A stretch of DNA of 31,851 nt from a virus, in IMG/VR virus record IMGVR_UViG_3300022540_000081, positions 1 to 31,851 of that record; one strand, given 5' to 3'. Under the pieces are notes generated by a model that saw only the letters and a list, made by a program, of their open reading frames with translations, made no database searches and was not told where the DNA came from. Position numbers and translations under genes: made by a program. Below, one piece after another: positions 5,937-31,851 of the stretch (its first letter is position 1; each line of letters opens with the position of its first letter).

Positions 5937-6125
5937 ATGCAAATAATAACAATACAATCAAACGGCTTTGAATCTTATTTCAAACGCGGTTTTACTGGGA
6001 AGCTGCCGAGAACAACCCAAAGACACGAGGCAAGTATTTACCAAAAGCGATCAAGCGCAGAAAGGAAGGTGAGAGCATTAAGAAAAAACCACCCTAACAA
6101 GGTGTTCAGGGTGGAGGATTATTAA
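5937..6125 (+). CDS. Small basic hypothetical protein
   Basis: The 62-residue product is rich in arginine and lysine (KRSSAERKVRALRKNHP in the second half), which suggests nucleic-acid binding. No family is recognised. It sits alone between the replication genes and a long structured intergenic element that ends in T6. Confidence 0.5.
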   Translation: MQIITIQSNGFESYFKRGFTGKLPRTTQRHEASIYQKRSSAERKVRALRKNHPNKVFRVEDY

Positions 6126-6143
6126 GGGAAATAATATGAAAAC

Positions 6144-6232
6144 GCTGGGATAAGTAGCTACAATTTATCGAACAGCACAAAATTAACATAGTAGCAAGCT
6201 GTTTAATAAGACCCATAACACCCAGCTTTTTT
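6144..6232 (+). terminator. Structured terminator with nested hairpin
   Basis: GCTGGG (6144-6149) pairs with CCCAGC (6221-6226), which is followed by six T residues (6227-6232). Inside the 71-base loop, AACAGC (6171-6176) pairs with GCTGTT (6198-6203). The closing stem is short for so large a loop, so it may be a multibranched RNA or a recombination-type hairpin rather than a plain terminator. GTTATGTGA, the edge of a cassette-like unit, begins ten bases after the T-run. Confidence 0.45.
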
Positions 6233-6241
6233 ATATTTAGT

Positions 6242-6584
6242 GTTATGTGACGTTAAATTATGAGTACAAAATCACATTTTATATATGAAGATGGCGTGGA
6301 GGGGTTTGAAGAAACTTCTGAACCACAAAGTATATTTGGTAAATGGACTGGATATAATGCTTATTTGATTATTGATAATAGCATATTAAAAGAATCTAGG
6401 TTAAAAGGAGAATATTTAATAATAGAAACAAAAAACACCGAGTATTTGCCTAATAAGTTTCAATTGTGGGGTGATGCAATTATAGAGGCTGAATGGGATG
6501 AAAAAGGTTTAATGGTAATATTGAAGGGGGGGCATCATATAACTAAAAAGATTATAAATAATGATTACCCTAATGCCAAATAAC
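6242..6584 (+). mobile_element. Cassette-like unit 1 (imperfect edges)
   Basis: GTTATGTGA (6242-6250) before the gene and CCAAATAAC (6576-6584) after it are inverted repeats matching at 7 of 9 positions. The stop codon TAA lies within the right repeat. A strong hairpin follows. This resembles an integron gene cassette, in which the left core is complementary to the start of the attC site. The integron RRRY consensus is not respected and no integrase is present. Confidence 0.4.
6260..6583 (+). CDS. Hypothetical 107-residue cassette-borne protein
   Basis: The 107-residue product is acidic in its first half and has alternating hydrophobic strands (AYLIIDN, EYLIIET, GLMVILKGG), suggesting a small beta-rich soluble fold. 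No family is recognised. The gene sits alone, has a short leader after GTTATGTGA, and its TAA stop is embedded in the TAACG that begins the following hairpin element. That arrangement suggests accessory cargo. Confidence 0.6.
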   Translation: MSTKSHFIYEDGVEGFEETSEPQSIFGKWTGYNAYLIIDNSILKESRLKGEYLIIETKNTEYLPNKFQLWGDAIIEAEWDEKGLMVILKGGHHITKKIINNDYPNAK

Positions 6585-6634
6585 GAGGTAGTATATGAGC
6601 CTATTTTAATGGCTTATATACATTTTTGTATACT
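6581..6634 (+). repeat. attC-like hairpin after the 6260 gene
   Basis: TAACG at 6581-6585 is followed by GTATATGAGCC (6591-6601), which pairs over 11 positions, one of them G-U, with GGCTTATATAC (6611-6621). An overlapping TATACA...TGTATA pairing offers a second fold. Few T residues follow the stem, so a terminator is less likely. No clear GTT core closes it on the right. Confidence 0.45.
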
Positions 6635-6680
6635 GTGCTTATTAACTAAATAGACTTAAATAAAATTAAATAGCAAAGAA

Positions 6681-7268
6681 ATGAAACGCCGCCTTACAAA
6701 AAACAAAAAATGCAAAAACAAAGAATGTGATAAACGATTCGATCAAAAGCAATTTGGTCAAGTCGTTTGTGATACAAAATGTGCGGTTGCGTATGCAGAA
6801 CAAAGAAGAAAGGCCAAGCAGGATGAGGAATTTAAGAAATTTAAAAGTAAAATTAAAGAGAGTCATAAAAACAAATCTTATTACATACAGGCACTACAAA
6901 AGGTATTCAATTCCTTTATTCGAGAGCGAGATAAAAACAAGCCATGTATTAGTTGTGACGCGAAAGCAGGAGAGTATAAACTTACGGCTGGACACTTTTA
7001 CCCTACAACATACGGTGTTTTAAGGTTTAATGAAGATAACGTTCACGGGCAATGCTGGTATTATTGTAATAAAAACAAGCATGGAAATATTAACGAGTAT
7101 CGAATACGTTTAATTGATCGTATAGGCGTTGAAAGGGTATCATATTTAGACGATATTAGGCATCAACGCATGGAACTATCAATAGAGCAATTAAAAGACA
7201 TGATAGCTTATTATAAAAATAAATTAAAACAAATGAAAGATGACGAGAAAAGATCAAATACTAATTGA
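6681..7268 (+). CDS. ninG: NinG/Rap-like recombination protein
   Basis: The 195-residue product matches the lambda NinG (Rap) family. It has an N-terminal zinc ribbon (C11, C16, C30, C34), a basic linker, then the conserved core with CISC (C89, C92), AGHFY (H105), an HGQCWYYCN cluster (H122, C125, C129) and the HGNINEYRIRLIDRIG segment at 134-149. Rap acts as a structure-specific endonuclease on recombination intermediates such as Holliday and D-loop structures, promoting phage recombination. The length is close to lambda NinG. The next gene starts 29 bases before its stop. The assignment is well supported by the order of motifs. Confidence 0.87.
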   Translation: MKRRLTKNKKCKNKECDKRFDQKQFGQVVCDTKCAVAYAEQRRKAKQDEEFKKFKSKIKESHKNKSYYIQALQKVFNSFIRERDKNKPCISCDAKAGEYKLTAGHFYPTTYGVLRFNEDNVHGQCWYYCNKNKHGNINEYRIRLIDRIGVERVSYLDDIRHQRMELSIEQLKDMIAYYKNKLKQMKDDEKRSNTN

Positions 7269-7524
7269 AAAGCTAAAATCTAACGGATTATCAACTAAAA
7301 TAATTCCAGATACTTTGTTTTGGAATGTTATTACCGATTGCATGCAGCAGTATTGCGATGAAAAGGAGTCAGAATTCGATAAGCAAACCATTTCTGATGT
7401 TGTAAATTTGAAAGAGTTTGAAGCGAAAAAGGAGAAAAAACCCCATGAACATGAATGGTTGTATTGTGGATATGGCTTTTATATTTGTGCAGACGAAAGT
7501 TGCGGGGAATATTTACAAAAATAA
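7240..7524 (+). CDS. Small protein with C-terminal zinc-finger-like motif
   Basis: The 94-residue product overlaps the NinG-like gene by 29 bases and is likely co-translated with it. Its C terminus contains HEHEW followed by cysteines at about residues 76, 83 and 88 (LYCGYGFYICADESCG), a pattern resembling a small zinc ribbon. The N-terminal half is helical and acidic. No family is recognised. Coupling to the recombination gene suggests a DNA-related role, which is inference. Confidence 0.6.
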   Translation: MTRKDQILIEKLKSNGLSTKIIPDTLFWNVITDCMQQYCDEKESEFDKQTISDVVNLKEFEAKKEKKPHEHEWLYCGYGFYICADESCGEYLQK

Positions 7525-7532
7525 AAGTTGGC

Positions 7533-7633
7533 CTAAATGTTTTTAACGTTTAGTGTAAATGCCGTGCTAAACTAAAAACTTTCAAATTACAACGGCTATT
7601 AATTGCATGGTCATTTTACACCGTGTTATCATT
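7533..7633 (+). repeat. Intergenic hairpins and left edge of cassette-like unit 2
   Basis: CTAAATG (7533-7539) pairs with CGTTTAG (7547-7553), and GCCGT (7561-7565) can pair with ACGGC (7592-7596). The stretch ends with GTTATCATT (7625-7633), which recurs inverted after the next gene. No gene is seen in it. The structure suggests a recombination-type or regulatory element. Confidence 0.4.
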
Positions 7634-7933
7634 ATTTATTTATGGAAACAGTAAAATTAAAAAACATATTAGATTATCATTGGGTAAATGAAATAATAGA
7701 TTTAAAGGCTAAATTTTCCGCTTATGATAAAGGGGATGATTGTACTATGTTTACGGTTTATCACAAAGAATATAATACGCCTCTATTAGAAATCTGTATT
7801 TATGGTTATTCGCAATCTTTTTTTGATGTAAATGATATTTCTGATTTATTAACGGAGGATAGTAAATGTATTACGATTGCAGAACACTATCACGAAAATG
7901 GAAAAATGTGGATTTGGAATAGTTAATGATAAC
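7625..7933 (+). mobile_element. Cassette-like unit 2 (perfect 9-base inverted edges)
   Basis: GTTATCATT (7625-7633) is the exact reverse complement of AATGATAAC (7925-7933). The pair encloses a single gene whose stop codon lies at the right edge. Exact complementarity between the cassette start and the beginning of its downstream hairpin element is the hallmark geometry of integron cassettes. No integrase or classical GTTRRRY core is present, so the label is descriptive. Confidence 0.5.
7642..7926 (+). CDS. Hypothetical cassette-borne protein
   Basis: This gene encodes 94 residues from the ATG at 7642. A longer reading from 7603 is possible, but its first 13 residues would be encoded by the repeat element, so the downstream ATG is preferred. 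The product is acidic, with short beta-like segments (MFTVYHKEY, LLEICIYGY) and no recognised motif. It is the only gene inside the perfectly bounded cassette-like unit and has no visible promoter. The function is unknown. Confidence 0.6.
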   Translation: METVKLKNILDYHWVNEIIDLKAKFSAYDKGDDCTMFTVYHKEYNTPLLEICIYGYSQSFFDVNDISDLLTEDSKCITIAEHYHENGKMWIWNS

Positions 7934-7958
7934 GTTGAATCTATGGGTAGTTATTGCC
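7925..7958 (+). repeat. attC-like element between units 2 and 3
   Basis: The element begins AATGATAAC-G, contains the small hairpin GGGTA (7945-7949) / TGCCC (7955-7959), and includes GTTATTGCC (7950-7958), which could start the next unit. It is much shorter than classical attC sites. Confidence 0.35.
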
Positions 7959-7977
7959 CGACTAAATACGAATAAAG

Positions 7978-8277
7978 ATGGATATTGAATTATTTATAAA
8001 ACAAAGAGGCTTGAACCCACAAGAAAAGCTAGACAATGATACTGGTGGATATTGGGAACTTAAAGACTTATTAGAAGATTTTGTTGAATGCCAAAATGAA
8101 GGGCAAGCATTACCTTTAGTTGATGTTAATGCTTGTTTGCCCAATTTACAAGACTTACAACACAAACACGACTTAAACAACTCTACGGGGTGGACTTCCC
8201 ATCCTGACGATTGTTACTTAGAGGGAGTTGAGGAAACTTACAAGGCTATTAAAAAGGAACTAAGCAATAAGTACTAA
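7978..8277 (+). CDS. Hypothetical 99-residue cassette-borne protein
   Basis: The 99-residue product is acidic and mostly helical. It contains a WELKDLLEDFVECQNEG segment and a C-terminal GVEETYKAIKKEL helix, with three cysteines that do not form a clear metal site. No family is recognised. Its TAA stop forms the TAACG that opens the next hairpin element. The left edge is uncertain: GTTATTGCC upstream only partly matches an inverted sequence near the gene end. It is probably accessory cargo. Confidence 0.6.
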   Translation: MDIELFIKQRGLNPQEKLDNDTGGYWELKDLLEDFVECQNEGQALPLVDVNACLPNLQDLQHKHDLNNSTGWTSHPDDCYLEGVEETYKAIKKELSNKY

Positions 8278-8328
8278 CGAAAAAGCTATGAGGCTGTACT
8301 TGTATGCCTTATAGCGGATGTTGTAGGT
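8275..8328 (+). repeat. attC-like hairpin element between the 7978 and 8368 genes
   Basis: TAACG (8275-8279) is followed by GCTATGAGGC (8285-8294), which pairs over 10 positions with GCCTTATAGC (8306-8315). The element ends with GTTGTAGGT (8320-8328). A second hairpin uses GTAGGT (8323-8328) and GCCTAC (8335-8340). No T-run follows the main stem, which argues against a simple terminator. Confidence 0.5.
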
Positions 8329-8593
8329 ATGTAAGCCTACGGATTTTAAACTTAAAAACTTAATTATATGGATTGGCAAGAAGCAATACAGAAAAGCACA
8401 AAAGGAACTGCGACAAGAATTGAAAAGAAAGGGAGCAAGAGATATACTACTGTAAGGTACAAAGACGGTAGTGGCTTTGTGCTTGTTGGTGAAAACCACA
8501 AGGTAGATTTTAGTAATAGCCGTGAAGCAACCTCAAAGGATTTGAACGGATTTACAGATTGGCTACCAAGCGAGTAGGCTTATTACCTACAAT
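8320..8593 (+). mobile_element. Cassette-like unit 4
   Basis: GTTGTAGGT (8320-8328) and ACCTACAAT (8585-8593) are inverted repeats matching at 8 of 9 positions, enclosing one small gene. The single mismatch is in the AAC/GTT core. A long structured element follows immediately. Confidence 0.45.
8368..8577 (+). CDS. Small cassette-borne protein, faintly Tad2/DUF2829-like
   Basis: The 69-residue product begins MDWQEAIQKSTKG and ends with KDLNGFTDWLPSE, with a basic beta-rich middle (RYTTVRYKDGSGFVLV). The start and end faintly recall DUF2829/Tad2-type proteins, which open with a WxEAL helix and close with a DL...DW segment. Some of these sequester Thoeris signalling nucleotides. The present protein is shorter and the similarity is by eye only. 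It is the sole gene between the inverted repeats of this unit. Confidence 0.55.
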   Translation: MDWQEAIQKSTKGTATRIEKKGSKRYTTVRYKDGSGFVLVGENHKVDFSNSREATSKDLNGFTDWLPSE

Positions 8594-8661
8594 GCGGAAC
8601 TAAACGAGCCTGCGCGAACGTTACGAGGAACGAGTAATGTCGTTTAGTGGGTGTTATAAAT
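8585..8661 (+). repeat. attC-like structured element after the 8368 gene
   Basis: ACTAAACGA (8599-8607) pairs perfectly with TCGTTTAGT (8640-8648). Inside it, CGTTAC (8619-8624) pairs with GTAATG (8634-8639) with one G-U pair, stacking directly on the outer stem. The element runs from ACCTACAAT to GTTATAAAT, 77 bases, which is within the usual attC size range. No T-run follows. Confidence 0.5.
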
Positions 8662-9338: not shown

Positions 9339-9650
9339 GTGGAAGTAAAGGTTGCCGAATACGCATTATATTGCCTCACGATAGCGGGGTTAAGTATGTT
9401 TCTTCAAGAGTGTTACAAAAAGCCAATGATACTAAGAAGATATTACAACCTAATAGCAATAACTTATTTAAAATCGCCGCGTAAATGGATAAAAGAGTTA
9501 ATGAAACCTCTGGGGCTTTGCGTTTACTGTCAGTCATTTTGGATAAACGTAGCTGTATATCCGTTGTGCTTTCCCATAAACATTAGCGCAATACTAAGCA
9601 TTGGAGGAGTATTTATCTCGATAGAATTAATAAGATGGATGAAGAAGTAA
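9339..9650 (+). CDS. Membrane protein with CxxCxxFW motif, DUF1360-like
   Basis: The 103-residue product uses a GTG start. It has an N-terminal hydrophobic helix (about residues 8-24), a basic middle, then the motif GLCVYCQSFW at about 59-68 followed by two short hydrophobic stretches. The CxxCxxFW core beside membrane helices resembles DUF1360-type phage and sporulation membrane proteins. It overlaps the small terminase gene by 16 bases, a position where such proteins occur in Bacteroidota phages. The function is unknown. Confidence 0.6.
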   Translation: MEVKVAEYALYCLTIAGLSMFLQECYKKPMILRRYYNLIAITYLKSPRKWIKELMKPLGLCVYCQSFWINVAVYPLCFPINISAILSIGGVFISIELIRWMKK

Positions 9651-31198: not shown

Positions 31199-31546
31199 AT
31201 GAAAGTAACAAAAAGAGAGATAGAAATAATTAAATTGATAGCAGACGGCAAAACATCTAAAGGAGCTGGCGATAATTTAGGCATATCAAAAAGAACGGTT
31301 GAAGCGCACATGAATAACGTTAGAATGCGTAACGGGCTAAATAACATTAAGGAGGTAATTAAATTATCGTTACAGCATGGAGTATTAAACGTAAGAAAGG
31401 TGAAGGATTACAAATTGGTAAAGGGGCTGAGTAAATCGGAACGCAACAAGGTTGCAAAAGAGTACGCAATAAAAACGGGCAACCCTAATATTAAGCTAAT
31501 AGAAAAAACTTTTAAGGCTGGTTATGATTACCATGCATCTCTTTAA
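31199..31546 (+). CDS. LuxR-type HTH transcriptional regulator
   Basis: The 115-residue product starts with a GerE/LuxR HTH: TKREIEIIKLIADGKTSKGAG, about residues 4-24, followed by LGISKRTVEAHMNNVRMRNG with the recognition helix at about 30-43. Unlike full LuxR proteins it lacks a ligand or receiver domain. A basic C-terminal extension replaces it. In a phage it could control lysogeny or late transcription. The neighbouring small helical gene may be a partner. Confidence 0.75.
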   Translation: MKVTKREIEIIKLIADGKTSKGAGDNLGISKRTVEAHMNNVRMRNGLNNIKEVIKLSLQHGVLNVRKVKDYKLVKGLSKSERNKVAKEYAIKTGNPNIKLIEKTFKAGYDYHASL

Positions 31547-31550
31547 AGTT

Positions 31551-31619
31551 AAGCGCAACGGTTTGGCTATGCACCGTATGAAGCATAGCGTAATATGGGG
31601 TATAGGTTGTGTTAGCACC
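31551..31619 (+). repeat. attC-like hairpin element
   Basis: AAGCGCAAC (31551-31559) is followed by GCTATGC (31566-31572) pairing perfectly with GCATAGC (31583-31589), and the element ends with GTGTTAGCACC (31609-31619). It has the same layout as elements at 8275 and 8585. There is no T-run, so a terminator is unlikely. Confidence 0.5.
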
Positions 31620-31850
31620 TGTACGGATTAAATAGTAACAAATAAAAATATATAATTATGAAAACAGTAATAGGAATTTTGACAATATTAATTTTATTCC
31701 CGATTAGAATTTATTTAATGTGGTATTTATTAAAAGCAGTTGGGGCAACTGAATTACCAATGTTTATCTTTTGGGTGTCTGTACCTTTTGGATTGTTGAT
31801 AGCAATACTTTCAGAGGTAGCTAAAAAGAATGTTTAGTATTGGTGCTAAC
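31611..31850 (+). mobile_element. Cassette-like unit at window end (perfect 9-base edges)
   Basis: GTTAGCACC (31611-31619) is the exact reverse complement of GGTGCTAAC (31842-31850). The pair encloses one membrane-protein gene. The unit repeats the geometry of the units near 6-9 kb, more than 20 kb away. Confidence 0.5.
31658..31837 (+). CDS. Small two-span membrane protein in cassette-like unit
   Basis: The 59-residue product has two hydrophobic segments (about residues 4-24 and 34-52) joined by a short loop and a charged end (SEVAKKNV), suggesting a small inner-membrane hairpin protein. It is the sole gene of its unit, starts 38 bases after the left repeat, and its stop lies four bases before the right one. 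No family is recognised. The function is unknown; small membrane proteins are common cassette cargo. Confidence 0.6.
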   Translation: MKTVIGILTILILFPIRIYLMWYLLKAVGATELPMFIFWVSVPFGLLIAILSEVAKKNV

Positions 31851-31851
31851 G

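Follow-up and report, generated by a model that had tools for sequence, protein, structure and literature searches.

Likely integron gene cassettes in integrase-less arrays of a virus with Bacteroidota-type hosts

The IMG/VR virus record IMGVR_UViG_3300022540_000081, analysed here over its whole length of 31,851 bases (the window), carries single small genes framed by short complementary edges and accompanied by imperfect hairpins. We consider it likely that these elements are integron gene cassettes arranged as clusters of attC sites lacking integron integrases (CALINs) in a phage of Bacteroidota-type hosts, with an integron integrase (IntI) supplied in trans by a host as the enzyme that would swap them. 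The evidence comprises the anatomy of the cassettes, a common hairpin family, edge pairing that is specific to partners, the absence of an integrase from the records tested and whole-unit replacement seen on comparison with related phages. As expected of a CALIN, at least two attC sites on the same strand lie within a few kilobases (8269–8328 and 8584–8661, with 6575–6633 located 1.6 kb upstream; positions from the covariance model R1 described below), and neither integron integrase (TIGR02249) nor tyrosine recombinase (PF00589) was detected in the record, which may be incomplete. With no intI gene in the record, the element does not qualify as a complete integron. The nearest named records for the terminase of this virus are Flavobacterium phages (45%).

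In the arrangement that we propose, a unit would begin at a G|TT edge, contain one small gene and close with an AAC edge complementary to its start, and an attC hairpin would follow. The original prediction had named three such edge pairs, and recomputation returned the same values: the left edge (R') GTTATGTGA at 6242 is complementary to the right edge (R'') at 6576–6584 in 7 of 9 positions, GTTATCATT at 7625–7633 pairs with 7925–7933 in 9 of 9 (10 of 10 on extension), and GTTGTAGGT at 8320 pairs with 8585–8593 in 8 of 9. A fourth unit, unseen in that first reading, occupies 31611–31851; its R' GTTAGCACC at 31611 matches its R'' GGTGCTAAC at 31842–31850 in 9 of 9 positions, and the record stops one base later. 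This unit has the leader GTACGGATTAA, holds a 59-aa open reading frame (ORF) and is preceded by a strong attC at 31550–31619. Thus, in all four units R' is complementary to its own R'', and each unit contains one short ORF ending at R'', all in one orientation (6260–6583, 107 aa; 7642–7926, 94 aa; 8368–8577, 69 aa; and 31658–31837). Stop codons lie in or beside the right repeats of the first three, as had been claimed. The hairpins said to follow the units were also recovered, at 6582–6622 (followed by a decayed GTT, G-TATAC), 8276–8323 and 8590–8656, with the one downstream of 7933 being degenerate. Within the record, the arrays lie next to ninG and upstream of the terminase genes, and also at the right end.

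The chance level of such pairing was estimated from 34,233 GTT..AAC/AAT pairs in the window, 150–1200 bp apart and scored at the six positions beyond GTT/AAC. A match at 6/6 positions occurred in 0.07% of these pairs and a match at 4/6, as in the 6242/6584 pair, in 4.3%—by these frequencies the second and third edge pairs are notable, and the first is weak when taken alone. A more specific expectation is that the start of an integron cassette pairs with its own end and not with the ends of other cassettes. Across phages, using R1 coordinates, consecutive partners reached ≥5/6 matching positions in 12/18 cases and non-partners in 37/1034 (Fisher p ~4e-13); an earlier version of the test, with sites picked by the inner stem alone, pointed in the same direction (≥5 matches in 9/38 versus 4/314).

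The hairpins were examined with R1, a covariance model built from an alignment of 23 hairpin sites in other Bacteroidota phages and holding no site from the window or from the related record L001. The training sites came from relatives found via ninG and terminase, from the Polaribacter phage P12002L and from edge scans. Helix covariation in this alignment was 0.62 compared with 0.20 in shuffles, with 74 versus 28 cells changed on both sides. Run on the window without filters, and with a short calibration that leaves the E-values rough, R1 ranked four cassette-edge sites first: 31550–31619 (34.1 bits, E 1.1e-4, the best match in the window), 8269–8328 (33.9 bits, E 1.2e-4), 8584–8661 (21.4 bits, E 0.036) and 6575–6633 (21.3 bits, E 0.037). 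The original prediction had proposed a covariance-model search of this kind, and its outcome agrees with the cassette assignment. All remaining matches in the window had E 1.8 or worse, including weak ones at 7924 and 7545. A search of 317 kb from proteobacterial loci gave no match at E≤5; the phage and other Bacteroidota loci searched, 882 kb in total, gave 27 matches at E≤1, all at array sites and confined to L003, L053, L054, L087, L091, L093, L101, L104 and P12002L. Six of the 27 are outside the training set, including three further P12002L sites. Since the attC sites of class 1, Vibrio and IntI loci escape R1, the model covers a single attC family and cannot serve for attC sites in general. 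Rfam gave no match in the window. A first stem-only scan of the window remained at shuffle level, and an initial combined scan for cassettes proved too permissive (258 versus 181 in shuffles); the covariance model and the partner test were used in their place.

These results also bear on the simplest alternative, namely that the complementarity arose by chance or that the repeats and hairpins are intrinsic terminators separating small phage genes (morons). The first edge pair, at the 4% chance level, and the weakness of several hairpins as single strands would suit this explanation. However, a model derived from other phages selects the same places, partners pair far above non-partners, and terminators would account neither for a gene framed by matched edges nor for exchange at G|TT. 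We reject the terminator reading on account of the matched edges, and regard the explanation as a whole as scarcely credible.

The attC sites of the R1 family are imperfect hairpins in which unpaired spacers, mostly of 5–6 and 3–4 nt, separate the R and L boxes. The site at 6575–6633 reads AAC(6)GTATATGAGCC...GGCTTATATAC and has a decayed R' box (GTATAC); the one at 8269–8328 reads AACGAAAAA GCTATGAGGC...GCCTTATAGC GGAT G|TTGTAGGT and folds on both strands; and that at 8584–8661 combines the R'' TACCTACAAT with the stem ACTAAACGA/TCGTTTAGT and the end G|TTATAAAT, its core being common to L001. At one register, most sites contain a conserved G.T mismatch (15/23 and 16/22, alignment columns 23–50 and 29–45) in the context TATG / YTATA, which reads as C.A on the bottom strand; by inspection, three of the four best sites in the window also have it (stems at 8276, 6582 and 31556). 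This mismatch may stand in for the extrahelical base of attC. The classical GTTRRRY core is not kept, as had been noted: the five cores of the window (GTTATGT, GTTATCA, GTTGTAG, GTTAGCA and GTTATAA) all deviate from it. IntI-bearing Bacteroidota loci depart from GTTRRRY as well, so this motif is not defining for the family. The description of the system as 'divergent' in the original prediction was overstated and is unnecessary, because GTTATN cores also occur in the IntI-bearing loci L229 and L233, and the sites belong to the same attC family as those of P12002L, where one of two assayed attC sites was active with IntI1 (PMC9892861).

Comparison with related phages showed that whole units are replaced. 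L001 is 98% identical to the window from 8591 onward and has a different ORF upstream, in the place of the 69-aa cassette ORF. In place of the window edges GTTGTAGGTA (R') and TACCTACAAT (R''), L001 has GTTAGCTACA and TGTAGCTAAT, so that both edges have changed in concert with their mutual pairing kept—a pattern compatible with whole-unit replacement at G|TT, but not diagnostic of it. L003, L053 and L054 have a common right flank from G|TTATCGCG (that is, G|TTATCGCGTCGTTTTAATGCGCG) onward, preceded by three different last cassettes. This array occupies the place of the second array of the window, given that a homologue of window ORF 9339–9650 follows the flank. L003 and L053 have a common attC core, whereas the attC of L054 is unrelated to theirs and identity returns exactly at G|TT, which is the clean change of a unit that the original prediction had suggested looking for. 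In L279 we found a fourth cassette with yet another attC; its junction begins with the same GTTATCGCGTCGTTTT as in L003, in a different context. Finally, the Polaribacter phages P12002L and P12002S have backbones that are 99.7% identical and a cassette block beside ninG that is wholly different: identity ends right after the R'' box ...CTTACAACGT and returns at AACAACGG. The differing blocks encode methyltransferases, with a Mom-like gene in P12002L.

Part of this variation could also arise if the cassettes were real and captured in the past, and the present differences came from homologous recombination between phages at common hairpin cores instead of IntI activity. The window/L001 and L003/L053 pairs are explained equally well in this manner, as identity in both starts at the R'' box and takes in the whole attC core; the identity of P12002L and P12002S likewise ends at R'' boxes, and no integrase was found in the phages tested. 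Two observations argue against this explanation, which we judge unlikely: L054 differs from L003 and L053 across the whole attC, with matching resumed exactly at G|TT, and the two edges of the new units still pair mutually.

Integron integrase was detected neither in the window record nor in eight related records (TIGR02249), and tyrosine recombinase neither in the window record nor in seven related records (PF00589), including the complete P12002L and the 41.6 kb record L104. Together with the edge pairing, the hairpin family and the unit replacement at G|TT, this agrees with the claim of integron-cassette geometry without an integrase. Candidate enzymes exist in possible hosts, as 105 of the 396 Bacteroidota genomes examined encode an IntI that scores over the curated cut-off. 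A recombinase other than IntI, of phage or host and so far unrecognised, might instead act on the sites, in a cassette system that imitates attC geometry. The attC family is indeed distinct from those beside IntI in 20 Bacteroidota loci. Against this stand the lack of PF00589 in the phages tested and the report that one of two assayed P12002L attC sites recombines with IntI1 (PMC9892861), and we consider such a recombinase very improbable.

On this basis, integron cassettes moved by a host IntI remain the interpretation that we favour. Phage DNA would become single-stranded in the host cell during phage replication, allowing the bottom strand of attC to fold; a host IntI supplied in trans could then cut the folded strand at G|TT, and its action would insert, remove or swap cassettes, by which the phage might alter its set of small accessory genes (anti-restriction genes, for instance). 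At the same points, close relatives have other genes, and these phages probably swap cargo with a host-supplied enzyme. Stocking the phage with accessory genes, the purpose put forward in the original prediction, is what we infer for the arrays.

Several points weigh against this interpretation. R1-type sites occur in 28 of the 396 Bacteroidota genomes at positions away from IntI genes and are absent from the 20 Bacteroidota IntI loci searched; the phage attC family therefore differs from the one beside those integrases. Given that the record may be incomplete, an integrase may lie elsewhere in the phage. The partner test was not fully blind, since edge complementarity helped to find part of the training set. 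In addition, DNA folding z-scores are ordinary for two of the four best window sites, two sites of arrays A and B are weak or degenerate, and cassette movement is deduced here from sequence comparison.

More tentatively, Bacteroidota phages may own a cassette pool, in which a distinct attC family (with a mismatch for the bulge and common end motifs) would circulate in lytic phages and be exchanged fast in trans by host integrases, leaving near-identical phages of one host to differ mainly in their cassettes. We regard this broader proposal as possible, albeit doubtful.

The window arrays belong to an already known type of element, as phage CALINs were described in 2023. Qi et al. reported 17 CALINs in phages, P12002L among them, and found that five of six phage attC sites recombined with IntI1. 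Two of the six came from P12002L, and one of them was active; coordinates are not given in the main text, and these may not be the sites used here (PMC9892861). In that main text, P12002S appears in the reference list only, and exchange between closely related phages is apparently not treated (PMC9892861). Like the window, the P12002L CALIN has attC sites of the same hairpin family and single-gene cassettes beside ninG in an integrase-less phage; its cassettes include methyltransferases and the Mom-like gene, whereas those of the window belong to no known family. The sedentary chromosomal integrons of Bacteroidota (L229, L233) have G|TT/AAC edges complementary within a cassette, hairpin attC sites and R' cores such as GTTATG and GTTATA in common with the window, but they carry an IntI gene and an attC core of another type (GCGTTT...AAACGC), and they give no R1 match. 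Mobile class 1 integrons have the same cassette geometry and G|TT crossover; unlike them, the window has no intI and, as attI cannot be recognised without it, no recognised attI; it also has no GTTRRRY R' boxes and no resistance genes. As far as the literature was searched, the new elements are pairs of near-identical phages in which cassettes have been replaced, the location of arrays next to ninG and upstream of the terminase, seen in several phages, and an attC family marked by the conserved G.T mismatch. So far, reports of phage CALINs have consisted of static annotations and an assay of recombination by IntI1. Whole cassettes differ between sister phages, and one such difference has its breakpoint exactly at G|TT, which suggests that lytic phages employ integron recombination to vary their accessory genes. 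Some of the genes that differ between P12002L and P12002S encode DNA methyltransferases, which may counter host restriction, and these two phages, reported to infect one Polaribacter strain, constitute a directly testable pair.

The other features of the window, all on the plus strand, complete this picture. The core phage gene ninG (6681–7268; PF05766, E 1.7e-43) has cassette arrays on either side. A 62-aa ORF (5937–6125), with no family match, is a possible first cassette of array A; it precedes a weak attC-like element (6123–6250) with a long, 88% complementary stem (6133–6149/6221–6237), which ends in the R' at 6242 and is not recognised by R1 in this orientation. Another weak attC, AAC(5)GTGTAAATG...CATTTTACAC(3)GTTATC at 7545–7633, was seen by folding and in the stem scan, with only 10.7 bits from R1, and the R'' edge at 7925 leads into a degenerate attC extending to 8001 (12.6 bits, E 1.8). 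A 99-aa ORF (7978–8277) has a good attC at its right end and lacks a left edge that would match it. An ORF at 31199–31546, encoding a LuxR-type helix-turn-helix or sigma-like protein (phrog_3282, E 1.2e-7), ends just before the attC at 31550. The cassette ORFs of the window had no match in PHROGs or PADLOC, and the 8368–8577 ORF had no relatives in the phage records, viral contigs or genomes searched. An autophagy domain in the 7642–7926 ORF (Pfam, E 0.00095) was below the curated cut-off and judged spurious; this ORF has no convincing family. The exact stem GGAACTAAACGA..TCGTTTAG was found among viral contigs in L001 and in four near-identical contigs, where it lies inside a coding gene and was set aside as coincidence.

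We also made several side observations. An identical 68-base segment ends two separate cassette arrays of P12002L on the right (L137 record, 37265–37198 and 29239–29172); such repeated terminal segments, including GTTATCGCGTCGTTTT in L003 and L279, may represent a mobile array terminus. Three contig ends (window 31851, L001:1 and L280:1) coincide with cassette edges or lie no more than a few bases from them, as would fit assembly forks from cassette variation at the population level. Near-identical lambda-like ninG loci (L144–L150) in genomes labelled Oceanobacillus, Neobacillus, Streptomyces, Leeuwenhoekiella and others probably reflect contaminated assemblies. L255 (G107:C1:248000-264000), a phage-like region of a chromosome, contains three near-identical group II introns, one of them inside an R1-type attC, and recalls the preference of group IIC introns for attC. 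In Virus Rctr41k (L132, KX853513.1, 4680–5678), an integrase that shares 45.5% identity with IntI1 has methyltransferase genes downstream of it, marking a possible complete phage integron. Finally, cassettes at L001:5, L003:1904, L093:4205 and 4468, L104:5203 and window 31611 have a common 5' leader resembling GTT-N6-AGTACGGATTATTAA and the end motif GTAGTATT-N6-AAC, as if built to one pattern.

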